Of a stretch of DNA of 64,000 bases, positions 18,239 through 59,886 are shown in pieces. The stretch is taken from NCBI GenBank assembly GCA_902619595.1, contig CACNFE010000002.1, forward strand, positions 1 through 64,000, written 5' to 3'. This DNA is from an uncultured Pelagibacteraceae bacterium (GTDB lineage: Bacteria; Pseudomonadota; Alphaproteobacteria; Pelagibacterales; Pelagibacteraceae). The notes under the pieces were generated by a model that ran no database searches, was not told the DNA's origin, and was given only the letters and a program-made list of their open reading frames with translations. Position 1 is the stretch's first letter. Each line of letters starts with the position of its first letter. The translations under genes and the position numbers were made by a program.

Positions 18239-18651
18239 TGGATTTGTCAGAGTCTAAAGATTTTCTAGTACACACTGCGAGTTTAAAAGAGGTTAGAGTT
18301 TTTTCTAGAGAAGTTTTTGATAAACTAAAGTTAGACAATGATCTTAAAGAGGAATTAGTTTTAGCGATTGCAGAAGCTGCACAGAATATAGTTAAACATG
18401 CATATAAAGGTGTTGAAAATACAACAGATCATATGCAAATAAAAATTTCTTTAAAGGAAAATAATTTAGAAATTGGATTTTTTGATAAAGGAAAACCTGT
18501 TGTTGCTGAAAATATTCAACACAGAAAATTAGATGATATAAAACCTGGTGGTTTAGGCACTTTTTTTATTAAACAAATCATGGATGATGCAGTTTTTAAA
18601 AAAGACCAACAACAATGGGTAAACCATTTAATTTTATCTAAAAAAATTTAA
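18238..18651 (+). CDS. RsbW-type anti-sigma/serine kinase (HATPase_c)
   Basis: This is a 137-residue GHKL ATPase. The N-box is EAAQNIVKHAY with Glu and Asn for Mg-ATP, the G1 box is FFDKGKPV, and the G2 box is GGLGTFFI. No histidine phosphotransfer domain is present, so it is a stand-alone serine kinase of the RsbW/SpoIIAB type. It would phosphorylate the STAS protein encoded just upstream and bind a client, classically a sigma factor. No sigma factor gene lies in this window, so the client may be elsewhere or may be a pilus or other protein. The stop converges with pilC (4-bp overlap). Confidence 0.93.
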   Translation: MDLSESKDFLVHTASLKEVRVFSREVFDKLKLDNDLKEELVLAIAEAAQNIVKHAYKGVENTTDHMQIKISLKENNLEIGFFDKGKPVVAENIQHRKLDDIKPGGLGTFFIKQIMDDAVFKKDQQQWVNHLILSKKI

Positions 18652-19889
18652 CCACCCATAATTGCACCAACATTGAATATTGGTGAATACATCGCAATCA
18701 TAAGCCCACCGATCATAATACCCATGAAAACAATCATTATTGGTTCAATTAAACTCGACATATTATTTACAGCTGTATCAAATTCAGCTTCATAATATCT
18801 TGCAACTGAATTGAACATTTCATCAAGTTGTCCGGTTTGCTCTCCAACCGATACTAATTGGCTGAAAGTTGGTGGAAATAATGGTTCTTTTAAAAATAAT
18901 TTTGTCAACGTCTCGCCTGAAAAAACACCTTTTTTGACATTCTCTAAAGCTTCAGTGACCACCACATTTTTACTAACAGATTTTGCAATTTCTATACTTT
19001 CTAATAAATTTACCCCAGCTGCACTCAAATTTCCCATAATCAATGAAATTTGCGCAATTAATGATTTTAGAATTAAATCTCCAAATACAGGTAATTTTAA
19101 AACTTGTTTGTGCCATTTATATTGTATTGCAGCATTTTTAGTAGTTAGATACTTAAATAAGAAATAACCTCCAACTAAACTTAAAAAGAGAATTTTTCCT
19201 CCGGTTCCTCTAAGAAAACCACTCATGCTCATAATTATTGCTGTAGGCTTAGGCAGGTCGAGGCCCATACCCTCGTACATTTCAGCAAATACTGGAACAA
19301 CTTTAATTAACATAAACGCACTTACAACCATTGCTGTAGTAAACATAATACCAGGATACATAAGAGCACTTTTAATTTTCTTTTTAATTTTTTCTTTTTT
19401 TTCTAAATCATCAACAATTTTGAGTAAAAAAACATCTAATTTACCACTGGCCTCACCTGCTTTTATCAAGTTAACATATACGTTATCAAAGTATTGAGGA
19501 TATTTTTCGAAACATTTTGATAATGTAACACCACCCTCTAAACTTTTTCTAATGTCTTCAATTACTTCTTTTATTGCAGGAGACTCTAATTGATCTCTTA
19601 ACATTGCGAGTGTTTGCAAAATAGGCAACCCAGCTTTTACCATGGTGGCAAACTGCTTTGAGAAAATTAAAATATCCTCCACTTTTATCTTTTTTTTCCC
19701 AAATAAAGAGAAACCTTTACCTTTGGCTTTTTCTTTTTTTTCGCCTTTTTTCTTATTAGTTTTGATTAAATTAGTAATAATTACTTTTTGCTCTTTAAGT
19801 TTAAAAGATGCCTCATCTTGATTGAGAGCCTCAATTTCTCCCTCAACGTACTTACCTGATGATATACCTTTATAAGTAAATACTTCCAT
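18648..19889 (-). CDS. pilC: Type IV pilus inner-membrane platform protein PilC
   Basis: The protein has 413 residues with two T2SSF domains, at about 70-195 and 275-400, each ending in a membrane segment. The N-terminal domain starts MEVFTYKGISSGKYVEGEIEA, typical of PilC/GspF. Motifs include FSKQFATMVKAGLPILQTL and the repeated GExSGxLD form (GEASGKLD and GEQTGQLD). The ATG at 19889 is preferred to the GTG at 19892 because pilB ends in TAG just before it. PilC organises pilin assembly with PilB and PilT. Confidence 0.96.
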   Translation of the reverse strand: MEVFTYKGISSGKYVEGEIEALNQDEASFKLKEQKVIITNLIKTNKKKGEKKEKAKGKGFSLFGKKKIKVEDILIFSKQFATMVKAGLPILQTLAMLRDQLESPAIKEVIEDIRKSLEGGVTLSKCFEKYPQYFDNVYVNLIKAGEASGKLDVFLLKIVDDLEKKEKIKKKIKSALMYPGIMFTTAMVVSAFMLIKVVPVFAEMYEGMGLDLPKPTAIIMSMSGFLRGTGGKILFLSLVGGYFLFKYLTTKNAAIQYKWHKQVLKLPVFGDLILKSLIAQISLIMGNLSAAGVNLLESIEIAKSVSKNVVVTEALENVKKGVFSGETLTKLFLKEPLFPPTFSQLVSVGEQTGQLDEMFNSVARYYEAEFDTAVNNMSSLIEPIMIVFMGIMIGGLMIAMYSPIFNVGAIMGG

Positions 19890-19891
19890 CA

Positions 19892-21643
19892 CTAGCTAGC
19901 TGATAAAACTCGCTCAAATTCCCTAAAGTTTAAGTCTCCATTGGCAATCATTCTTCTGCCCATATCTTGCATGGTTTGAAAACCTTCTTTGATTGCAATT
20001 TCTCTTAACTCTGGCGTTGTAGCTTGTCTTAGAATTGCTTCTTTGATTGGTTTTGACACTACCAATATTTCATAAATTCCTTGTCGTCCTTTATAACCAC
20101 TATTTTTACATTTTGCACAACCTTTGCCTTTAATTGCTTTTACTCTAGATGCTTTTTCTGGAGTGAAACCTAAGTCAGTTAAAACTTTTGGTGTAACATC
20201 TTCGTCTGGAACTCTACAATCTTTACAATTTTTTCTAGCTAATCTTTGCGCAAGTACCATTTGAGTTGCTGCACTGATTAGATAATCTGGTGTTCCCATA
20301 TTTTGTAATCGTGTGATAGTGCTTGGCGCATCGTTGGTATGAAGTGTGCTAAATACTAAGTGACCTGTTAATGCAGCCTTTAATCCTATATCAACCGTTT
20401 CTTTATCTCTCATCTCTCCTACCAGAATTATCTCTGGGTCTTGACGTAAAAAAGATCTCAAAGCAGAGGCAAACGATAAACCAATGTCATCTTTAATTTG
20501 TACTTGGCCAACACCATCTAATTCATATTCAACAGGATCTTCTGCAGTCAAAATATTAAGATGTGGTTTGCTTACTTCTTTTAAAATACTATAAAGAGTT
20601 GTTGATTTACCTGATCCAGTCGGTCCAGTTACTAATACAAGACCTTGGGTACTATGAATAGCTTTTCTTAAATTTTTAAGATCTTGATCTTCAAAATTTA
20701 ATTGTTCCAAAGTTATATCACCTGCGTCTTTGTTAAGAATACGCATTACAATTCTTTCGTTGTTTGCTGTTGGCAATATAGACAATCTTAAATCAACAAC
20801 TTTACCATCAATTTTAAAATTAATTGCGCCGTCTTGCGGTAATCTTCTCTCGGCGATGTCTAATTTACCCATGATTTTAAAACGTGTTACGACCGCACCA
20901 TAGTTATCATGTAAAAATTTTTTATATTCTTCTTGTTCTTGAAGCATTCCATCAAGTCTATATCTGACCCTTGATGAAAATCTGTATGGCTCAATATGAA
21001 TATCACTAACACCTAGTTTAATCGCATCCGCTACAACAGCGGTACTAAACTTTATTACCTCAGACTCGTTTTCTATTGCTTCGATTTCCTCTTCAGGTTT
21101 ATTTTCTAAAACTTCTCCAGCATCTCCAAGCTCTGAGTCAAAAGTTTTTACTTTTTCCTTATTTTCTTTTCTTATAGTTTCAATTTTAACATCACCACTT
21201 TCACTTTGTAACTTTTGAATAAACTCAGAAATCTGAGATACTTTAGCTGCATGAAGTTCAATATTTTTTTTTGTAATTGCTTTTAAATTTCTCATTAATC
21301 CAAGTTTTGAACTATCAGAAATCGCTATATGTAAATTTTTTCCCTCAACTTTAAAAGGTGCAACAAAATTCATATTTATGTAGTTTGATGGCAAAACAGA
21401 TTTAATATCATCTGTAATTTCAATCTTTGATAGATCTACAATATCTAGACTCTGCTCTTTAACTAAAACATCTAAAATTTTGTCCTCATCACAAAGTTTT
21501 AATTCAAAAACTGCATCGATTTGTGATTTGTTTTTTTCAGTGCTTACTTTTTTTATATTTGGTAAATCTTTTCCAGAAATAATATCGTTGTCAATTAAGA
21601 CGTTGATTAAATTTATTTCACTTTCTCTGCTTATTTTCAACAT
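19892..21643 (-). CDS. pilB: Type IV pilus extension ATPase PilB
   Basis: The 583-residue protein begins with a T2SSE_N domain, followed by the AAA-like secretion ATPase. Walker A is GPTGSGKST, the Asp box is LTAEDPVEYEL, Walker B is ILVGEMRDKET and the His box is LVFSTLHTND. The zinc site is CKDC ... CAKC, characteristic of PilB/GspE and absent from PilT. A glutamate-rich linker at about 155-190 separates the two parts. It hydrolyses ATP to extend pili and is encoded between the secretin and pilC. Confidence 0.96.
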   Translation of the reverse strand: MLKISRESEINLINVLIDNDIISGKDLPNIKKVSTEKNKSQIDAVFELKLCDEDKILDVLVKEQSLDIVDLSKIEITDDIKSVLPSNYINMNFVAPFKVEGKNLHIAISDSSKLGLMRNLKAITKKNIELHAAKVSQISEFIQKLQSESGDVKIETIRKENKEKVKTFDSELGDAGEVLENKPEEEIEAIENESEVIKFSTAVVADAIKLGVSDIHIEPYRFSSRVRYRLDGMLQEQEEYKKFLHDNYGAVVTRFKIMGKLDIAERRLPQDGAINFKIDGKVVDLRLSILPTANNERIVMRILNKDAGDITLEQLNFEDQDLKNLRKAIHSTQGLVLVTGPTGSGKSTTLYSILKEVSKPHLNILTAEDPVEYELDGVGQVQIKDDIGLSFASALRSFLRQDPEIILVGEMRDKETVDIGLKAALTGHLVFSTLHTNDAPSTITRLQNMGTPDYLISAATQMVLAQRLARKNCKDCRVPDEDVTPKVLTDLGFTPEKASRVKAIKGKGCAKCKNSGYKGRQGIYEILVVSKPIKEAILRQATTPELREIAIKEGFQTMQDMGRRMIANGDLNFREFERVLSAS

Positions 21644-21644
21644 T

Positions 21645-23192
21645 TTATAAAACTCTTGGTGCTATAAATATTAATAGCTCATCTAAGTTATCACTTTTTG
21701 TTGTACCTTTAAACAGATTTCCTAAAATAGGTACATTTCCTATGCCCGGTAACTGAGCTTTTGTATCAAATACTTTATTTTTCTTAATTCCACCAATTAC
21801 AACGATGTCTCCATCAGCAACTAAAAGCTTAGATTTTATCTTCATTGTGTTAACACTTGGCTCGCCTCCTGTAGCTCTATTTACAGAGTCGTTGTTTACA
21901 CTAACATCCAATAATACATTTCCATCACCGATAATACTCGGGGTAACTGATAGTTCTAAAACAGCAGGTTTAAATTGTGTTTCTGAACCACCGTCACCTG
22001 TTGATTGGTATGGAATTTCCTCACCCTGAGTAATAGTTGCTTCCTGATTATCTATAGTAAAAACTTTTGGATTAGATATTGTTTTTCCTAAACCAAGAGA
22101 CTCTAAAGCTTGTATTTGAGCTTTTAAAATTGAGGTACCTGTCCTTTTAATTATACCGATACCGCTTGTTGCCCCAGCGGCAGCGGCCGTAAAATCTGTA
22201 ACTGATCCTCCTGCATCACTGATAGACCCTGTCTCCTGATCGAAAGTAGTTGATGTCAAAGCATCCCCACCAACAACACCACCAACAACTCTCTGATTTT
22301 TTACGTATGTGCCACCTAATCTTGTCCCTAAAGCTTTTTCAAATGTAGAGTCTGCTTCAACTATAAACGCCTCTATCAAAACCTGTTTAGTCCTTACATC
22401 AATTTCACCAATAATTTTATTTACAACATCTAAATCTTCACTTTTACCTCTAACAATAATAGATCGTGTTGTAATTTCCTCAGTTATTTGAATTGGTGAA
22501 AAACCAGCCTCGCCTGTTGAAGTAAATAATTCATTAATAGTAGTCTTAGCTTCTGCAGGTGATATATAATAAAGTCTAAAAATTTCTGAGACAATTGGTT
22601 CAACGGAATCTTCTAATTCTACTTTCTTTTTAACTGCTGCTGCCCTTGTTGATTTATATGTTTCTTGTGCAGTTAAAGTTGAGGGAGTGTGTACTCTTAT
22701 TAAATTACTTGAAACATCGATATCGGCTGCAAAATTTTTCATATCTAATAGAGCATTAAAGGCTTTATCCCATGGAACATTAATTAGTTCAGCCGTAATC
22801 GATCCTGCTACCTCATCACCTACTAAAACATTTATATCTCCTACCTTACCCATTAATTGCATTGCTTCTGCGTAATCTAAATTTTTAAATTTGAATGAAA
22901 CATTTTGCTTTAAAGTTTTAAATTCGTCAGGAATTAATAAATAATTTCTTTTTTGTTGAGATGATATTTTTTTTCGTTTTTGTAATGCTTTTGTATCTCC
23001 GATCACGGGTTTTGGTCCCATTTTTATAGTTTTATCAATTTCCATTTTTCCTGATTTTCTAATGTCGTCTTTAATCAGTGGTGTATTATGTTTAAATTTT
23101 TTATTAGTTTTTATGTTTGGTTTTGCACAAGCATTCAGTAAAAGTAATAATATTGAAATTACAGAAAATATTTTTAAAGAATTAATATTCAC
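21645..23192 (-). CDS. pilQ: Type IV pilus secretin PilQ/MshL, lipoprotein form
   Basis: The 515-residue protein has a signal peptide with lipobox LNAC (Cys22), so it is a lipidated outer-membrane secretin. Residues about 85-165 form an STN-like domain (VSFKFKNLDYAEAMQLMGKV), followed by an N1 domain and the secretin barrel (GTSILKAQIQALESLGLGKTISNPKV is cut from its start). It ends LDELLIFIAPRVL, the secretin signature. The lipobox and length resemble MshL more than classical PilQ, which has AMIN domains that are missing here. It forms the pore through which pili exit. Confidence 0.93.
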   Translation of the reverse strand: MNINSLKIFSVISILLLLLNACAKPNIKTNKKFKHNTPLIKDDIRKSGKMEIDKTIKMGPKPVIGDTKALQKRKKISSQQKRNYLLIPDEFKTLKQNVSFKFKNLDYAEAMQLMGKVGDINVLVGDEVAGSITAELINVPWDKAFNALLDMKNFAADIDVSSNLIRVHTPSTLTAQETYKSTRAAAVKKKVELEDSVEPIVSEIFRLYYISPAEAKTTINELFTSTGEAGFSPIQITEEITTRSIIVRGKSEDLDVVNKIIGEIDVRTKQVLIEAFIVEADSTFEKALGTRLGGTYVKNQRVVGGVVGGDALTSTTFDQETGSISDAGGSVTDFTAAAAGATSGIGIIKRTGTSILKAQIQALESLGLGKTISNPKVFTIDNQEATITQGEEIPYQSTGDGGSETQFKPAVLELSVTPSIIGDGNVLLDVSVNNDSVNRATGGEPSVNTMKIKSKLLVADGDIVVIGGIKKNKVFDTKAQLPGIGNVPILGNLFKGTTKSDNLDELLIFIAPRVL

Positions 23193-23631
23193 TTGTCTCC
23201 TTAATCTGGTTTTTAAAATTCATGATTAAATATTTTTCGTCGGTTTGAAAAATTGCTTCTTTGGTTGTCATATCTACTAGTTTGACACCATCATTTAGCT
23301 CCTCAAACATACCTACCGTAATTACTTCACCATCTTGATTTATAAGAGAAATAAAACTATCTGAATCTGATTTTATTATTCCAACTAACTTGTAAGTGTA
23401 TAAATCAATTCGCTTTTTTTCTGCTAAACTATTTCCATCTTCAGTTATAACTTTAACTCCACCTGAAAAAGATGAGTCTCCAACAAAAGGATCGTTTAAA
23501 GGTAACGGTTCCTCTTTATTTTGACTTGATGATTTGTCTTTATCATGAGTGTCAGCATAAATATTATTGCTAAATAATACTATTAGAGTTGTTAATAATA
23601 GTTTTACAAATATTTTTTTAAAAGAACTCAT
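23182..23631 (-). CDS. pilP: PilP-like type IV pilus alignment protein
   Basis: The 149-residue protein has a signal peptide ending IYA and a mature segment LPLNDPFVGDSSFSGG followed by LYTYKLVGIIKSDSDSFISLINQDGEVITV, which matches the C-terminal beta fold of PilP where a homology region binds the secretin. Known PilP proteins are lipoproteins; here there is no lipobox, so it is probably a free periplasmic protein. The gene overlaps pilO upstream and pilQ downstream, as expected for PilP. Confidence 0.8.
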   Translation of the reverse strand: MSSFKKIFVKLLLTTLIVLFSNNIYADTHDKDKSSSQNKEEPLPLNDPFVGDSSFSGGVKVITEDGNSLAEKKRIDLYTYKLVGIIKSDSDSFISLINQDGEVITVGMFEELNDGVKLVDMTTKEAIFQTDEKYLIMNFKNQIKETSEY

Positions 23632-24310
23632 CTGTTAGCCCCACTATTGTTAAAGTTCCACTTACTTTTATCGCTCCAGTTGAATCTCCTAACTCTACTT
23701 GTATCTTTTCTGACTCAAAATTCAACATCTTATTAGATAACGATAAAGCCCTCTTAAATTTAATGTATCCTAAAAAATTACCATTGATCTGAAATTTAAC
23801 GGGAATTGAGTAATATGCTATGTTTTTCATTTGGTCTTTTTTAGACACTGCTTTTTTCCTTTTCTTTTTCTTTTTCTTTTTCTTCTTACCTTTATTTAAA
23901 ATTTCCGACTTTGACACTTGCTGAGGTTTGCCTTTTTCTATTACTGAAATAACCAAACCATTTATAGTCGCAAACTCACTTAGGTTTTGATATAAACCCT
24001 CTACTTCTGCTTTTGAATGAAATAATGTTGAATAGTTCTCATACTTAGGTTTAATTTTTTTAATCTTTTGCTTTATTGATACAATATCTTTTTCAAATTT
24101 AGCAATCTCCTCTTGTTTGGTATTCATATCAGAAATTTGAGCCCTCTTTTGTTTTACAATTGGATTTAAAATTGCATAATAAATTATTAAAAAGATAATA
24201 ATTGAACCCAAACTTATACCAATCTTAATCAAAGTTTTTTTATCAGCAAAAGCTAAAATTTTTGCTTTCAAATCATCTATGTTTAAATTTTTTAATTCAT
24301 TCAAATCCAT
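23618..24310 (-). CDS. pilO: Type IV pilus inner-membrane alignment protein PilO
   Basis: The 230-residue protein has a short cytoplasmic N-terminus, one TM helix at about 31-50, a periplasmic coiled coil (QKRAQISDMNTKQEEIAKFE) and a ferredoxin-like C-terminal domain. A run of about ten lysines at residues 140-150 sits in the loop between coiled coil and domain; it is unusual and echoes the basic tail of the FecR protein. PilO dimerises with PilN, here fused to PilM. The gene follows pilMN by two bases. Confidence 0.9.
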   Translation of the reverse strand: MDLNELKNLNIDDLKAKILAFADKKTLIKIGISLGSIIIFLIIYYAILNPIVKQKRAQISDMNTKQEEIAKFEKDIVSIKQKIKKIKPKYENYSTLFHSKAEVEGLYQNLSEFATINGLVISVIEKGKPQQVSKSEILNKGKKKKKKKKKRKKAVSKKDQMKNIAYYSIPVKFQINGNFLGYIKFKRALSLSNKMLNFESEKIQVELGDSTGAIKVSGTLTIVGLTDEFF

Positions 24311-24312
24311 AA

Positions 24313-26766
24313 TTATCCTTTAACTTTTACAAATACTTTAAATCCTTTCATTACTTGGTCTCCCGCTTGTACCCTTGGCATTTTCATTGATGATAGAGAT
24401 GCTTGTGTGATGTAACTTTTTGATTGTAAGTTTCTGATCAACTGTAAGATATCATTATCGCCTGCTGCAATTCCTGTAATAACTACCTGTCTCTTTCCAT
24501 CATAATCTACAGAGTCAAACTTAACTCTATTTGGAACGCTGCTCGCAATCTGTGCTAACACTCTGTAGCTCAAATCTTTATTAGATTTAAGACTATTGCT
24601 TAATTTAAGAGTAGTTGTCATTTTCTTTAATTCTTTTGAAAATTTCGCAACTTCACCTTGCTTAGCTAAATGCTCAGCTACTACAGTATCGTATACTTTT
24701 AATTTATTGTTATAGGAATAAATGTTCCAAAATGATAAAGCGAATAAGATTAAATATATGCCTGCAACCGCACCCACTACTCCTTTATAAGCGAAATCAG
24801 AGAATGCTTTCATTTTCTTTTGCTTAATCATTCCTTCCCTATTCGGAAGAAGATTTATATTTTTTACAGCTGTAACAAATTTGTAATATCCAAATACATC
24901 GAGTTTTCTAAAAGCAAGACCAACAACAGTCGAAAAATAGGATCTATTTTCTATAGTTATTTTATTTTCTAATTGTTGAGGTATTTTTAAACCATCAAAC
25001 GGGTCAAACAAATTAAAGCCAGTATTTACTAAACTTTTTCTAAAGCTAGATAGATAATCATCAACGTTTGGTAAATTGGAAACTACTTTTATATTTCTAA
25101 CCCTTTTTTCATATTTAGTTTCAAAATCCTGTACAGCTTGTTTTACCTGTGTCATAAAACGTCTAACTAGAGCATCTTTTTCCTCTTGATCTTGAGACTC
25201 TTTCAGAATTTTTCTATCCTGACCACGTAGGAAAATATCGGTAATTATTGGGTTATTATTATACAATATCATTACATAATTCTCGTCTAATCCAAATTCT
25301 AACATTGCAGTGAAATTTGTATCCTCTGTTTTATTTGAAATTTGGTTGATTTGATCAACAGCAGACTTTAATGCAAAACATTTAACATCAATAATTACAG
25401 GATTTAATCCACTGTTTTTAATTATTGATGTGTAATTGTTAATATCAGCTAATTTTGAAGCAACAAATAATATATCCATAGTATTTTCTTTTGAACTTCT
25501 GTTAATAACTTGATGAAAAATTGAATAATCGTCAAGGTTATCAGTTAATTGAATTAAGTTTTCCCATAATGAATTTGTATCTACTGCTTTTTTTAATTCT
25601 TCATCATTCATTAATGGAGCAGTAACAACTCTTATAATTGCGTTTGTAACTGGAATTGCAATTGCTGCATTTGGTGTTGATATTTTTGATTTTTGCAATG
25701 CTATGTTTAATTCTTCGCTTACCTTTTTTTCGTGATCAATAATTGCAGAGTCTTCAGGAAGGTCGATTGCATGAGTATAAAATCTATCTAATACCCATTG
25801 ATTTGCTTTGTTTGATGAAATTTGTGCAAGTCTAATTTCTTTATTAGTAATTTCAACACCAACTATTTCCTCACCTTGCGCAGTTTTTTTACCAAGCCGC
25901 GATTTTAAAAAATTATTAAATTTTTCTTTTACTTTATTTTTATCAAAATTTAATTTTGGAGAAGCTGAGTCTTTTTTTCCAAAAGAGGGGGTATTTAGCT
26001 TAATATTTTTTAATTTATTAAAAATGTTTTGAACTTTTGATCCCCCAGCATCAGTTTCTTCTTTTTGGTTTAAAGAAATATTATTTTGTTCTTGTTGTTT
26101 TATCTCGTTTATTTTTTGATTAATGAGCTCTTGAGTAGATATCTCTGGAGATTTTGGTTTTATTTCCTCATTGGGGCCTGGTTTAACCTCAGGATTTTCT
26201 AAATTTGGTTGTGATGAAACATTATCTGGTTTTTGTTGTTCTAATTGTTTTTGTTCTCTCTCTTTTTGCTTATGGACATCATCAAACCATTTCTCCAAAA
26301 TTGGTATTGCTTCCTCTAAATTTGGAGTACCTGATGAAGAAATCTTTTGTTTTCCATCAATATAAAGTCTCCCAACCCAATTCCTTGATTTTAATTCACC
26401 TTTATATTTATCTTGCCTCACATAGATATGTAATCTTCCGTCTTTTTTGTGAATTACTTGATGCTCTTTCTTTTCTTCTGAAGTTTCAGCTACAACATTG
26501 CTTTCATCAGGCTTGTCTTTTTCTGGACTTTCGTCTTTATTTTCATTTAAATTGCCCTCTGACTGAGTTGTTGCATCTGTTTCGGTCTTTATATCACTCT
26601 CAGGTTGTTTTTCTTCAGAAGGTGTATTGTTTTCTAGCTCAGAAATTTTGCTCTCTTTATTTATATCGGGATTTACCGAAGCATCATCAACTTTAGGTTG
26701 ATTATCGGTTCCTTGGTCATTCTTATCTATAATGACACCAAATTTTTCTTTCTCTTTATCGTCCAT
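24313..26766 (-). CDS. pilM: PilM-PilN fusion protein with extra N-terminal domain
   Basis: The product has about 817 residues from the ATG at 26766. An earlier in-frame ATG at 26817 would add 17 residues read through two copies of the CTCTAACACAA repeat, so 26766 is preferred. Residues 1-100 are acidic and disordered. Residues about 105-165 (RLHIYVRQDKYKG, WVGRLYIDGKQK, then a helix) look like a three-strand plus helix integrase arm-type DNA-binding domain. Residues 170-295 form a linker. PilM (actin-like) spans about 298-620, and from 636 PilN begins with INLLP, one TM helix at about 666-682 and a periplasmic domain. In other bacteria INLLP docks into separate PilM; here both are one chain. 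Confidence 0.88.
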   Translation of the reverse strand: MDDKEKEKFGVIIDKNDQGTDNQPKVDDASVNPDINKESKISELENNTPSEEKQPESDIKTETDATTQSEGNLNENKDESPEKDKPDESNVVAETSEEKKEHQVIHKKDGRLHIYVRQDKYKGELKSRNWVGRLYIDGKQKISSSGTPNLEEAIPILEKWFDDVHKQKEREQKQLEQQKPDNVSSQPNLENPEVKPGPNEEIKPKSPEISTQELINQKINEIKQQEQNNISLNQKEETDAGGSKVQNIFNKLKNIKLNTPSFGKKDSASPKLNFDKNKVKEKFNNFLKSRLGKKTAQGEEIVGVEITNKEIRLAQISSNKANQWVLDRFYTHAIDLPEDSAIIDHEKKVSEELNIALQKSKISTPNAAIAIPVTNAIIRVVTAPLMNDEELKKAVDTNSLWENLIQLTDNLDDYSIFHQVINRSSKENTMDILFVASKLADINNYTSIIKNSGLNPVIIDVKCFALKSAVDQINQISNKTEDTNFTAMLEFGLDENYVMILYNNNPIITDIFLRGQDRKILKESQDQEEKDALVRRFMTQVKQAVQDFETKYEKRVRNIKVVSNLPNVDDYLSSFRKSLVNTGFNLFDPFDGLKIPQQLENKITIENRSYFSTVVGLAFRKLDVFGYYKFVTAVKNINLLPNREGMIKQKKMKAFSDFAYKGVVGAVAGIYLILFALSFWNIYSYNNKLKVYDTVVAEHLAKQGEVAKFSKELKKMTTTLKLSNSLKSNKDLSYRVLAQIASSVPNRVKFDSVDYDGKRQVVITGIAAGDNDILQLIRNLQSKSYITQASLSSMKMPRVQAGDQVMKGFKVFVKVKG

Positions 26767-26786: not shown

Positions 26787-26841
26787 CTCTAACACAAACA
26801 TAGCTTATCTCTAACACAATTTTAAAAAATGTCTAACACAA
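26787..26841 (+). repeat. Three direct 11-bp repeats, CTCTAACACAA, 22 bp apart
   Basis: Copies start at 26787, 26809 and 26831; the third has G for the first C. Starts are exactly 22 bp apart, about two helical turns, so all face the same side of DNA. They overlap the region just upstream of the pilMN start at 26766. Their position suggests operator sites for a multimeric DNA-binding protein. I saw the motif nowhere else in the window outside 26787-27101. Confidence 0.85.
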
Positions 26842-26956
26842 AATACAACCTATGGTGACCATTTTAGGTCAAAATGTCTATAAGTGTTGATTTTATTGAC
26901 TTTTTTTAAATTCTTGAAAAAAATTATTTTCTTTTTAAAGAAATATTTATTTTTAA

Positions 26957-26998
26957 TAACTCTAACACAAAATGGTAAAATTTGTTGTGTTAGAGTTA
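26957..26998. promoter_or_regulatory. Perfect 14-bp palindrome built from two opposed CTCTAACACAA motifs
   Basis: TAACTCTAACACAA at 26957-26970 is repeated as its exact reverse complement at 26985-26998, with 14 bases between. This is the centre of the repeat family: plus-oriented copies lie on its left and minus-oriented copies on its right. A symmetric dimer site is the simplest reading. A transcript hairpin is possible, but no T run follows directly. Confidence 0.8.
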
Positions 26999-27069
26999 AT
27001 TATTATTAAATAAAAACCAAAATATCACAAAAATCAACACTTTTATTAAAATCCTTGTATATGCGATTC

Positions 27070-27101
27070 TTGTGTTAGAGATAAATTTTTTTGTGTTAGA
27101 G
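27070..27101 (-). repeat. Two inverted-orientation 11-bp repeats, TTGTGTTAGAG, 21 bp apart
   Basis: Copies at 27070-27080 and 27091-27101 are the reverse complement of the left array, with a start-to-start distance of 21 bp. Together with the left array and the central palindrome they give seven copies in 315 bp, arranged almost as a mirror image. Confidence 0.85.
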
Positions 27102-27449: not shown

Positions 27450-27749
27450 TTATTCAACTAAAGATCTCCCAGTTATATCTGTTGTAAACGATTGATATAC
27501 CATTACTGTTAATGTCTCAATATTTTTAACAACTCTATTATAATCAAAAGACCAATCTACTTTAGTGCAATCTAATTCTTTATAATAATAAACTTGTGCT
27601 TTTTTAATTGAAGGACCAATTTCTTCTGAAAGAATATTTAACATATTTGTTTTCTTATCAATTGCAAAATTGTATTTACAAACATTTGCTGTTGTCCAAT
27701 ATAATACAACCGAAATTAATATTGCAATGAGCGACATAAATTTTGTCAT
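27450..27749 (-). CDS. Small exported protein of unknown function, coupled to the GAF-PP2C gene
   Basis: The protein has 99 residues with a hydrophobic N-terminus (MTKFMSLIAILISVVLYWTT) that is a signal peptide or membrane anchor, followed by a mostly polar domain with two cysteines (NVCKYN, LDCTKV) that could form a periplasmic disulfide. Its ATG overlaps the stop of the GAF-PP2C phosphatase (ATGA), so the two are cotranslated. It may sense or modulate for the phosphatase or belong to the pilus. No family is recognised. Confidence 0.65.
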   Translation of the reverse strand: MTKFMSLIAILISVVLYWTTANVCKYNFAIDKKTNMLNILSEEIGPSIKKAQVYYYKELDCTKVDWSFDYNRVVKNIETLTVMVYQSFTTDITGRSLVE

Positions 27750-29032
27750 TGTATACTATCGACTGTAACAATTGTTAAATCATCTTTTTGTATCATGCCT
27801 GCTTTCACTATATCCTCAATCATTAATTTTAATCGTTTATTATTTGGTGCGTGTTGATATTTTTTTATATATTTTTGAAAACCTTCAACTTCAAGCATAT
27901 CACCTGATGGACTTTTTATTTCGGTTATACCGTCAGTAAAAATATACATTGAACTGTCTGAAAAGTTTGTAGTTGTCTCTTTATATTTTATTTTAGAAGT
28001 TATACCTAGTGGTGGACCGGCTTCAGAAAAGTTTGAAAATTTTTGTTCTTTATCAATTACAAGTGGTGGTTCATGTCCAGCATTTGATAAAAGTAATTCT
28101 TTTTTATTACTATCATAAATTCCAACCAACATTGTAACAAACATTCCTCTTGCAGCTGTTTCACAAATTTCTTTGTTAAGTAAGTTTAAAAGATCTGATG
28201 TAGAAAAAATAGTTTTACTAAGGCAACGATAGAGACTAGATGCCTTCGACATAAGTAAAGATGATTTAATTCCTTTGCCTGAAACATCAGCAACTCCAAA
28301 ACCATACATTCCTTTTCCAATCTCAGAAAAGTTATAGAAGTCACCTGATACAACTTTTGCAGGGATATTTATTCCAGCTATTGGAAAATTTTCATCTTTA
28401 TTCTTAGATAATAATGTTTTTTGTATTTCCCCAACAATTTCTATTTCCTTTTGCATTCTATTTTTTTCAACTAGTTCTTTTGCCATTTTTGCATTACGAA
28501 TTGCTAAAGCAGCAGGTGCAGATAAAGTTTCAAGTAATTTTCTATCATTCTCCTCAAATAATTTTCCATTCGTTTTTTTATTAAGACAATGAATAACACC
28601 GATGCATTCATTCGCAGCAATTAATGGTGAACAAAGAACTGAATAAGTTGTAAAATTAGTTTTGTTATCTAAGTCAAAATAAAATTCAGCAATTTCTCTA
28701 ACATCTTTTCTTACATCTCCAACTCTAATACATTTTTTTTGAAGAACAGCCTTGCCCATTACGCCTTGCGTTAAAGGAATTTCATATTCATCAAGATATG
28801 ATTGATATTTTGATGCGATACATTGAAACACTTGTTTTTTTTCATCAATTAAAAAAATATTTGCTGCTTGAGCATTTATTCTTTTAATTATTACTTCTAA
28901 AGCTGTTTGTAGGGTTTCATTTAAATCTAAAGATGTTGCGAATTCCTGGTTCATTTGTGTAATAATCGCAAGATCCTCGTCCAAAGAGTTATCTTTCTTT
29001 ATTGGCTCAATTTTTTTTGTTTTAAAAAACAT
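27746..29032 (-). CDS. GAF-domain PP2C (SpoIIE/RsbU-type) serine phosphatase
   Basis: The protein has 428 residues. A GAF domain spans about 30-190, then a short coiled coil and a SpoIIE phosphatase at about 215-425. Metal-binding aspartates lie in KVVSGDFYNF, ADVSGKGIKSSLLMSKAS, FTDGITEI and KDDLTIV. It has no TM segment, so it is a cytoplasmic sensor-phosphatase, unlike the CHASE2-PP2C at 11513. Both could act on the STAS protein at 17939. The GAF domain may bind a small ligand or sense redox state. The gene is coupled to the small exported protein downstream. Confidence 0.9.
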   Translation of the reverse strand: MFFKTKKIEPIKKDNSLDEDLAIITQMNQEFATSLDLNETLQTALEVIIKRINAQAANIFLIDEKKQVFQCIASKYQSYLDEYEIPLTQGVMGKAVLQKKCIRVGDVRKDVREIAEFYFDLDNKTNFTTYSVLCSPLIAANECIGVIHCLNKKTNGKLFEENDRKLLETLSAPAALAIRNAKMAKELVEKNRMQKEIEIVGEIQKTLLSKNKDENFPIAGINIPAKVVSGDFYNFSEIGKGMYGFGVADVSGKGIKSSLLMSKASSLYRCLSKTIFSTSDLLNLLNKEICETAARGMFVTMLVGIYDSNKKELLLSNAGHEPPLVIDKEQKFSNFSEAGPPLGITSKIKYKETTTNFSDSSMYIFTDGITEIKSPSGDMLEVEGFQKYIKKYQHAPNNKRLKLMIEDIVKAGMIQKDDLTIVTVDSIQ

Positions 29033-29988: not shown

Positions 29989-32900
29989 AAATTCTCTCGC
30001 CAAGAATTTCTGAAAGATCTAAATTGTTTTTCGCTGGCAAGTATTTGTACAAGAGTATCTTCTGCTTCTTCTGGTCCAGCTAAGTTTGCAAACATGCTAC
30101 CACCGTAAACAACAAGTTTGGATAAAATACCACTTCCTACTTCATAACAACTTCCTTGTGCAACACTAGGATCGATATGTGTAGAGTCTAATGAGCCACA
30201 CTCATCATCATACGCACAAACATATGCCGTTCCTAATTCACAAACTTGTTCAGCTGGTTCATAGATTGGAAAATAAACTTTACCTCTATAAACAGTAGGT
30301 GCTGCTGAAGTTTTTCTAAATTTATTGCCTGTAGTTGATTTAGGGTTACTATCTGGTTCACCTAAATGATATTTCCATGCATCATCATTAGTTCCAACAC
30401 TGCAGGTCGGATAGTTTTCTCCTGTTGTATCAACACAGTCAGAACTTTTATCTATTTTTGGAGTATTTGAACTATTAAATGCTGTCGCTGAATTAAGAAT
30501 AAAGTCTGTACTTCCACTTATAAGTTTAGGATTATTTCTTGAAACAAAGTTTGGAAAATCACGATCTCTTATCCCATAAACTATATTATCCATTAAGCTT
30601 TTTCCATCTTCACCTACTGTTTCAGATATTCTATTAAAGTTCCCTGTTCCCCCAAATAACCAGAGATTTCCGGAGTCTCCTCCAATTGCTGCATCCATTT
30701 CAAAAAAACTAAACCTCTTATTTATATTGTCTGCTTGCAAGTTCATAAGAAATTGCTGCTCATATAGAGTACCATCTGAGGTTAAGTTAATTTTAATTAC
30801 TTTTCCCTCTAAATCATTAATGTAAACCATTGCTCCTCGCCAATCAGCCTGTGGTACATTATCTGCCGTTATGACTATAGGTGTAGCTGGAACTGAATTA
30901 ACTATAGGACTTGCATGTTCATACTCTCCCGTAATTCCTATTTTATACCCTTTCTTTTCACTGTCTAATATCCTCATAAATCCGTCATTTTCAGTTGATC
31001 CAAATAATCTTCCAGCTTTATGTCCAAGCTCTGAATTGTCCTCAAGCGGACCGGCTTCTAAATCAACGATAAAGACACCAGAACCTACACATTTAGTTCC
31101 AGATCCCATTCCTCCACCCATAACTGCAACGTATCTATCATCCTTATGATCTAAGCTTCCACTGGTAGATGGCATTCTAAAAATTCTTGGTGTGGACCAA
31201 GTCTCACCTAATCCACTATAATCGAACTCTATATTATTTATTCCTTGGCCATCGCAAGTCGTCTCTATTTTAATTTTATCAGATTGCCCTGCAATACCTT
31301 GGTCAATAGTGAATTTGTTCGTAGCACCGAAATTTATTGTCAATATAGCGCCGTCATAAGTTGCTGTAACATCATTATCAGATATCTCTATCCAATCGTC
31401 GCTAACTAATTCAGAAATTGACAGTACACCATCCTTTACCGTTCCATTACTTACTGCGCTGTCTGGTAATGTTATATCAAATGTAAAAACATTATCTTTG
31501 AAACATGTTGTTGCTCCACTAGCGTAGGATGTATTTACAAAGCCACCTCCTGCATAATCACTATTACCCTGACATGTATCTTTAGCATCCCTATTAGTAA
31601 AATAATCTGCCTCAAAGTCATCTGTAGTGTCGGCTGGAGTACCGTTATCATTTGTGTAAGTACCTAAAGCTACATCTCTCGTCTCAGCTTCCTCATAGAT
31701 ATTAGCTGCGTGAACCCCCTCAAAAGATTCTTCTAATGAAAGAGTCGCTCTTTGATATGGAAGTCTTGTCATTTTACCATTATGATCTACTCTTATAACC
31801 TCTTTATTATAAGAGTCGTTATATATAGAAAACATATGCAGAGGTCCTGTCCCTGTTTCATATGTACCATCATCCTTTTCTGTTCCAGCTGTTACAGTTG
31901 GTACAGTTATATCCAGTACTGAAAATCCTGCTCCACCACGACCATAAGGAATGAATAATAAAGTCCGCCAGGATTTTCCTGTTTCATATTCTGTCCCGCC
32001 TGGATTTAACCCCTTGATAAACACATCATGAACAACAGGTGATCCATCAACAGCAAATATAGGATTAGTACCTCCAGCTTTATTTCCTCCACCAAATTTT
32101 CCATCCATATTTTTGTTCACCAAGAGCGGGAGCTGGGCTGCAATCAATGGAGGTACAAATGCCCATTCCTCATCTCCAGTTTTCGCATTAAATGCGTGCA
32201 ACGTTCCCCCATTTGAACCTGCGTAAACAATTGTTGTTCTATCTTTGAGAGATGTTTGAAAAGCTCCATAACCTTTAGTTGATCTCCAGTATTTTTCTTG
32301 GTTGTTGCCAAAAAAGTTTGTACTTGCATTAGGTGGACCAACTTCGATTAGTTGAGAATGATAAATATCACCTAAAATCCAATCTCTATCCTCAGTAATA
32401 TTACACGCTCCACTTCCTGAACTTCCATCGTAATCAAAGTAATCGACACCTCTAACAAAATTTATTAATCCTTTTACATCATCCTCAATTCCATCTTCCA
32501 CACCTGGTGTATTTTTAATACCACAAGTTGATTGAGAATTATGATAATCTCTTACTACGTTACCGGTTGCCTCAAATAATTCTTGAATTGCAGCTGCATT
32601 ATTTGTATTCCAGTTATTCCATCCTCCGCTTCCAGTGTAGCCTGCGCTTCCATATTGATCAGTATCAATTGCAGTCCAGATTTTTCTATTCACAGATCCT
32701 TTAGAAGCTTTAACAAGTTCAGCTCCAGCATCCCAGTTACCAGCTGCCTTACCCTCATCGGTATCCAAGTCATCGTTAATGACATTATTATCAATACTAT
32801 ACCTATATAAGTGCCCCTTCCATTCAGTGTTTGACCTATAATTAAATTGCGCTTGATAAATAGATCCACCTTCTTCAAGAGTTGCTGTTATTGATGGAGC

Positions 32901-59338: not shown

Positions 59339-59383
59339 GAATAATTTATTGAATCTTTAAATTAAGGTTTTATATTATAAATG

Positions 59384-59642
59384 TTGGATTTCCAACTACG
59401 ACGATAAACGAATTTCGTAATAAACATTGCGGACGTGGGGGCAGTACCCACCACCTCCACCATTACAACTTATGGGGGTGAACTAGGATCGACGGATGTG
59501 TAAAAGTCTTTCTTTCGTTCGGGATTGTTCCACCGTGACGGGCTATTTTATAATTGCAAATGATAAATTTGCTCTTGCTGCTTAATTAATTTATTAATTA
59601 AGTAACGGGGTTTTGGGGCACCTGGCAACAGAACGCCCCTTT
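59384..59642 (+). ncRNA. ssrA: Circularly permuted two-piece tmRNA (SsrA)
   Basis: The acceptor piece comes first: T stem GTGGG/CCCAC at 59435-59439 and 59447-59451, then CACCTCC and ACCA ending at 59462. Eleven bases later the coding piece begins with GGGGGTG at 59474-59480, which pairs with CACCTCC over seven pairs (one G-U) to rebuild the acceptor stem. The pattern GGATCGACGG follows, as at other tmRNA 5' ends. The tag frame GCA AAT GAT AAA TTT GCT CTT GCT GCT TAA encodes ANDKFALAA at 59556-59585. A stem CTTAATTAA/TTAATTAAG covers the stop, and a GGGGC/GCCCC hairpin with T run ends the gene. The T loop GGCAGTA is not the usual TTCRANN. The 5' limit is approximate. Confidence 0.93.
59615..59642 (+). 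repeat. tmRNA 3'-terminal hairpin, repeat copy 1 (functional)
   Basis: GGGGC, ACCTGGCAACAGAAC and GCCCC form a stem-loop followed by TTT, closing the tmRNA coding piece and serving as its terminator. This 28-bp unit is found again exactly at 60887-60914 and in weaker form at 62902-62916 and 63430-63449, so it is the reference copy of an attachment-site-like family. Confidence 0.9.
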
Positions 59643-59886
59643 CTTATAAAAAAATCTTTAACCATTTCAATAATTTTAGAAAATTATTTTTGTTTTGACC
59701 ACATTTATACCGCAGTTCAAATATTTTTGACTTCTGTCTTCTCATACTAAGTATTTATCTCTTTAGTATACTTTTTGATAAATATGCATGCCGCACTAAT
59801 AAATCTAGCCGCAGTTTGACCGCAATTATTTACAATTTCAAATATTTTTAACTTTGGGCACACATAGGTCGCAGTGAAAAAAGAAA
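59643..59886. other. Noncoding stretch with short internal repeats downstream of tmRNA
   Basis: No convincing ORF lies here. It holds two related segments, CGCAGTTCAAATATTTTTGA at 59711-59730 and TTTCAAATATTTTTAACTTT at 59836-59855 with GGGCACACATAGG after it, plus scattered GACCGCA or TACCGCA words. The second segment resembles 60781-60812 on the far side of the next two genes. The stretch may be recombination-site debris or a promoter-like region. Confidence 0.6.

Follow-up and report, generated by a model that had tools for sequence, protein, structure and literature searches.

An array of 11-bp sites upstream of the fused pilMN gene of SAR11 and its predicted reading by an integrase-type domain of PilMN

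What is the role of a cluster of short repeated sites directly upstream of a type IV pilus gene in SAR11, and which protein reads it? The window (the whole stretch of DNA analysed, 64,000 nucleotides from an uncultured Pelagibacteraceae bacterium) carries six exact copies of CTCTAACACAA and one near copy (GTCTAACACAA) at 26787-27101, directly 5' of a fused pilMN gene. The array is placed between a 99-aa ORF and the minus-strand pilMN gene. Among the heterotrophic bacteria of the surface ocean, SAR11 has been described as the most abundant group. Its pili are little studied, although dividing cells have been observed with filaments interpreted as pili (PMC12636525). The features of the locus are as follows.

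18648..24310, minus strand: genes for PilO, a PilP-like protein, secretin, ATPase (T2SSE) and PilC (T2SSF), as co-directional, nearly abutting ORFs
24313..26766, minus strand: pilMN fusion gene, 817 aa, with matches to PF11104 and PF05137
26242..26472, minus strand: N-terminal domain of PilMN, assigned as homologous to the arm-binding N-domain of tyrosine integrases
26787..26797, plus strand: site C3, CTCTAACACAA, the closest to pilMN, with its position kept in relatives
26809..26819, plus strand: site C2, exact copy, 22 bp from C3
26831..26841, plus strand: site C1, GTCTAACACAA, a weaker copy with one mismatch and the usual variant here among relatives
26843..26872, minus strand: putative sigma-70-like pilMN promoter, TTGACC-N18-TTGTAT, directly before site C1
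26882..26904, no strand assigned: second conserved element, B-C gap, AAAAGTCAATAAAATCAACACTT, found in 27 of 38 distinct relatives
26960..26970, plus strand: site B2, exact copy, half of the inverted centre
26985..26995, minus strand: site B1, exact copy, the other half of the inverted centre
27026..27044, no strand assigned: second conserved element, A-B gap, AAAAGTGTTGATTTTTGTG, found in 33 of 36 distinct relatives
27070..27080, minus strand: site A2, exact copy
27091..27101, minus strand: site A1, exact copy, 21 bp from A2

The site array and its conservation across SAR11

Start-to-start spacings in the window array are 22, 22, 129, 25, 85 and 21 bp. The pilMN start is the ATG at 26766, and the nearest site, C3, ends about 20 bp before the start codon. 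A preliminary description of this stretch had counted seven copies, three of them direct copies 22 bp apart. The spacing of the three is indeed 22 and 22 bp and two of them are exact, but the copy at 26831 differs at base 1, leaving six exact copies in total. The palindrome with 14-bp arms and the inverted pair 21 bp apart (27070 and 27091) were both recovered as described, and the statement that the motif is confined to this part of the window holds for exact copies, with one further single-mismatch site at 32450.

In the whole 1.0-Mb assembly (85% complete), the exact 11-mer is found seven times: six times at the array and once on another contig. A composition-based estimate for this A+T-rich genome gives a chance expectation of about 0.7 exact copies per genome. 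Thus, the single copy elsewhere can be attributed to chance and the cluster cannot. With six of the seven exact copies at one locus the motif is not scattered genome-wide, and a DNA uptake sequence is rejected on the same count. The motif has no match to TTATNCACA, and so is not a DnaA box, and its unit is too short for a CRISPR, both as previously proposed. A replication origin (oriC) was also rejected, as GC skew stays negative through the array and there is no TTATNCACA match.

SAR11 relatives whose PilMN is 62-80% identical have the same array in front of pilMN. In addition, 80 named SAR11 loci were fetched by the presence of the PilMN N-terminal domain, and the array was read where upstream sequence sufficed. 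Loci carry 5-9 recognisable sites, in the order A(- -), B(- [-] + [+]), C(+ + +), with two apparent exceptions (L181 and L191). The A-B distance is 85-88 bp in all 59 loci measured. For the inverted centre, 52 loci have 25/26 bp, 11 have 35/36 bp and two have 90, the last two without a recognisable intervening site. B-C distances are 125-130 bp in 43 loci, 138-140 in 11 and 116 in six, and the 148-150 of a further six is consistent with a lost C1. Within cluster C, C2-C1 is 22-23 bp and C3-C2 is 19-22 bp among relatives. The spacing steps are close to one helical turn (10-12 bp), and the sequence between the sites is only 50-60% identical in most groups. In close relatives that retain this pilMN, motif and spacing are both retained. 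The mirror order noted in the preliminary description is kept in most lineages but is not essential: the deep lineage G117 has five recognisable sites, all in a single orientation, spaced 84, 21, 96 and 20 bp. Helical phasing is thus better conserved than mirror order.

The two exceptional loci have features of their own. Upstream of L181, SpoIIE-type sequence is joined in reverse to PilMN, most likely as a single-cell amplification chimera. L191 (MAG BS30m-G18) has an apparently duplicated, partly decayed array of 15 sites, at about -1127 to -294 relative to the domain. In 22 of the 80 loci (L130, L133, L140, L142, L150, L156, L162 and others) the contig breaks off no more than about 1.3 kb upstream of the domain. 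Breaks in assembly are thus unusually frequent at or near the array, which may reflect A+T-richness, inverted repeats or local variability. L135 comes from a MAG titled Gammaproteobacteria but has a SAR11 pilMN locus, so that the label of the bin or contig is probably wrong.

An integrase-type domain in PilMN and its association with the array

PilMN is ordered as N-terminal linker, DNA-binding-type domain, linker, PilM and PilN. In the long form of the protein (about 750-840 aa), the extra domain of about 70 residues (KKEHQVIHKKDGRLHIYVRQDKYKGELKSRNWVGRLYIDGKQKISSSGTPNLEEAIPILEKWFDDV) lies between two long linkers, which are likely to be flexible, judged by their composition. The domain is far better conserved than the rest of the protein, with a mean pairwise identity of 95% compared to 77% for the PilM-PilN backbone, and is the more conserved of the two in 99% of pairs. 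Even in G117 and G130 it is 81-82% identical to the window domain, where the backbone is only about 50% identical. Long-type loci also carry, between pilus gene blocks, a GAF-SpoIIE phosphatase gene and the family-less 99-aa ORF (27746-29032 in the window), neither of which was seen in the short-type regions compared.

Judged by sequence alone, the domain may resemble AP2. Sequence searches of Pfam, NCBIfam and PDB returned nothing useful, and no close relative was found in viral and phage collections. PHROGs gave weak matches only, the best (7e-4) being a functionally uncharacterised phage protein and a still weaker one the C-terminal part of an HNH endonuclease. In a class-wide profile search, the N-domain of one tyrosine integrase was matched (E 0.0024 per genome over 289 genomes, not significant alone). 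The reverse search with that N-domain in 142 genomes found integrase-size open frames elsewhere and, in this genome, only PilMN (E 7.7e-4, 38% identity). Comparison of profiles for the two domains in hhalign gave 94.8% probability, with 37% identity over 51 columns. When the integrase N-domain (INTN) profile was run against 3118 SAR11 ORFs, 133 of the 137 matches had the PilMN VIHKK core, and the remaining four come from G130 and L200, where the core of PilMN differs slightly. On these profile comparisons, the PilMN domain is homologous to the N-domain (about 60 residues) of alphaproteobacterial tyrosine integrases. In the integrase homologues the N-domain is followed by a SAM-like core-binding domain, which is the position of arm-binding domains. 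PilMN is without the SAM-like core-binding and catalytic domains, both of which the integrase homologues have, and has PilM_2 and PilN instead. An AF2 model of the domain has four strands and a helix (pLDDT 84-86), where the arm-binding family would call for a three-stranded sheet and a helix. Foldseek searches of PDB and BFVD with the model gave no confident match to a solved structure; the predicted fold is compatible with the integrase link and is not counted as evidence for it.

The distribution of the domain follows that of the array. Among 121 genomes of the genus, 28 have the domain, and the repeat pair occurs in precisely those 28. PilMN is found in 49 genomes, of which 21 have a short form without domain and without array, and the other 72 genomes have no PilMN match, domain or array. 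The repeat pairs listed share a contig with the domain, close upstream of it, and sites are located directly upstream of pilMN in all relatives having the domain.

L186 (AG-435-N15) clusters with short forms in the PilMN backbone tree (SH-aLRT 96), its backbone being 80% identical to that of short-type G035 and 60% to the window protein. Its PilO (74% identical to G035, 50% to the window) follows the same pattern, and it retains the short-type PilT-like gene (92%). Nonetheless, L186 has the domain and eight sites, located downstream of a transporter gene (MFS/ATG22-like), and the usual long-type SpoIIE/GAF and 99-aa genes are absent upstream of its array. Thus, on at least two occasions domain and array have changed as a pair, and the genes usually found upstream are dispensable. 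The backbone tree needs about 2-3 changes, so the number of independent co-gains or losses is small. Additionally, as domain and array are adjacent, a single recombination tract could carry both, which limits the argument from co-occurrence.

A link between domain and motif is also seen at the integrase genes themselves. Within 120 bp upstream of their start, these carry direct repeats (CTTACACA, CTAGCACA and similar), mostly paired at a distance of 11 bp (11 of 18), with tRNA-like sequence adjoining in many cases. The pilMN site core is CTAACACA, and it shares with the integrase repeats the consensus CTNRCACA. As this consensus was formulated after inspection, the upstream regions were retested with the pilMN 8-mer CTAACACA, allowing up to one mismatch. 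This probe found 25 sites within 120 bp upstream of 16 of the 18 integrase genes, compared to 0.62 expected from the remainder of the same loci, although the 18 integrases are related to one another and are not 18 independent cases. Of 280 permutations of its letters, CTAACACA ranks first, and the next has 12 sites. A predicted DNA motif can in this way be assigned to the whole integrase N-domain family, and CTNRCACA sites would be useful for predicting the att sites of these integrases. Alphaproteobacterial integrases with this N-domain and predicted arm-type CTNRCACA sites are found at L220-L237 and L241-L243.

Proposed role of the array and competing explanations

Taken with the shared motif and the shared distribution, the homology of the domain makes it very probable that PilMN binds the array. 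The preliminary description had left the binder unnamed; it is likely to be PilMN itself, through its N-terminal domain of integrase arm-binding type. That description's proposal of a cooperative operator bound by a multimeric protein, with the pilus operon as target, fits the conservation at a single locus, the quantised helical spacing and the strict linkage to long PilMN. With reasonable but lesser confidence, the array is interpreted as the operator of the pilus operon, read by PilMN through a captured integrase arm-binding domain in a case of autoregulation. The downstream pilus genes (18648-24310) are likely to be regulated together with pilMN.

The putative window promoter has a counterpart in L205 (TTGACC-N17-TTATAG), and a TTGACC-N17/18-TTATAG-like promoter is found just before C1 in several lineages. 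A consensus promoter scan does not call the predicted pilMN promoter in the window. If the promoter is right, C1 overlaps the transcription start and C2 and C3 are in the leader, an arrangement suggestive of repression. The G117 sites, by contrast, precede a TTGACA-type promoter, and so would fit activation or looping as well as occlusion. The gaps between clusters contain the second conserved element, GTTGATTTTATTGACTTTTTT, whose position in the A-B gap is nearly constant and which is often present in the B-C gap too. This is possibly an IHF-type bending site; a strict IHF consensus in the gap elements is at chance level, and the genome has three HU/IHF-family proteins.

The proposed mechanism is as follows. 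PilMN would have acquired a tyrosine-integrase type arm-binding N-domain, joined by long linkers to the PilM ring protein. One domain would read each site of about 11 bp, the sites lying on one helix face and forming three clusters (two sites in A, 2-4 in B, three in C), each gap with a conserved, possibly IHF-bent element. Several domains of a PilMN oligomer or assembled ring could then bind at once, with high avidity. With C1 over the predicted transcription start and C2-C3 in the leader, the bound state would most likely repress the operon, so that either the product or the assembled machine would feed back negatively on its expression. Such self-repression, by way of arm sites overlapping the promoter, is known from integrases (PMC2951348). 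PilM forms a ring with PilN, predicted to be six-fold in Thermus (PMC13039148), and a ring of PilM on PilN means that one machine could bind several sites. A more speculative and rather unlikely extension is that the assembled ring holds the array as one body, senses its own assembly, switches the operon off and anchors the locus at the pilus site; binding to the array would then be strong only once the ring is assembled.

It is also unlikely that PilMN binds the array mainly so that the chromosome, or this operon, is tethered at the pilus machine in the membrane, as a centromere-like or localised-expression anchor, with transcription control secondary. The number and spacing of the sites are more elaborate than simple repression needs, this locus has the genome's only site cluster, and PilMN should be a membrane-anchored ring component with a cytoplasmic N-terminal domain on long linkers (PMC13039148). 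However, the sites straddle the predicted promoter, which points to regulation, and the array is absent from 93 of the 121 genus genomes. It is thus not a general segregation site, and a general chromosomal centromere-like site was rejected for this reason.

It is improbable that the array serves as operator for some other transcription factor, encoded elsewhere, with the PilMN N-domain doing other work, such as protein-protein contact. As the assemblies are incomplete, such a factor could escape notice. However, this would not be expected to place array and domain in the same 28 genomes or the same motif upstream of the domain's integrase relatives, and in L186 the array is kept without the neighbouring long-type SpoIIE/GAF gene and 99-aa ORF upstream.

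A leftover phage attachment site (att arm sites) with no present role is very improbable. The motif, the arm-type site clusters and the possible IHF sites do resemble an integrase att region, but diverged genomes have kept both motif and spacing although the intervening sequence drifts, which needs selection. Moreover, the window has no tRNA, and in neither the window nor the SAR11 loci does the INTN profile match an integrase N-domain besides PilMN. That the repeats act as RNA in the pilMN leader, regulating translation or mRNA stability, is hardly credible: C2 and C3 do fall within the presumed 5' leader, shortly ahead of the start codon, but A and B are upstream of the predicted promoter, A and B1 are oppositely oriented, and helical-turn spacing is a property of double-stranded DNA.

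In lambda-type att intasomes, arm clusters are separated by bending sites and read by N-domains. The PilMN array is alike in its arm-type clusters and possible bending sites; in contrast, no strand exchange would be expected, and the central sites share the arm motif. The membrane-anchored or bifunctional regulators ToxR, CadC and PutA are proteins with another job or location that also bind their own or related promoters. Unlike these, PilMN makes up the structural platform (PilM-PilN) in a type IV pilus. A close parallel to the proposed autoregulation by PilMN is IntS of KplE1, a negatively autoregulated integrase, which also has an integrase-type N-domain and arm-type repeats upstream of or overlapping its own promoter, and whose nucleoprotein complexes involve IHF (PMC2951348). 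Unlike IntS, PilMN is without a recombinase core and is a pilus assembly component, and no core-type site was identified. Its sites are 21-22 bp apart in three clusters, whereas those of IntS-type integrases are 10-11 bp apart. MrpR of SPbeta (PMC10516654) and ALOG domains (PMC3537659) are described as exapted, tyrosine recombinase-related DNA-binding parts that are now regulatory; they are dedicated regulators, whereas PilMN is part of a cell-surface machine.

Autoregulation through arm sites is already known for integrases, and tethering to the pilus machine would be the novel case. The open-access papers searched describe neither this array nor a sequence-specific DNA-binding domain in a platform protein of type IV pili. 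If true, autoregulation by PilMN would be a rare direct coupling of a cell-envelope machine to its own genes, through a mobile-element DNA-reading domain taken up, with its matching sites, by a structural subunit. It would also offer a natural system in which to follow the long-term evolutionary matching of a DNA-binding domain to its target array. Elsewhere in the window, a permuted alphaproteobacterial tmRNA with the tag ANDKFALAA is found at 59345-59676.
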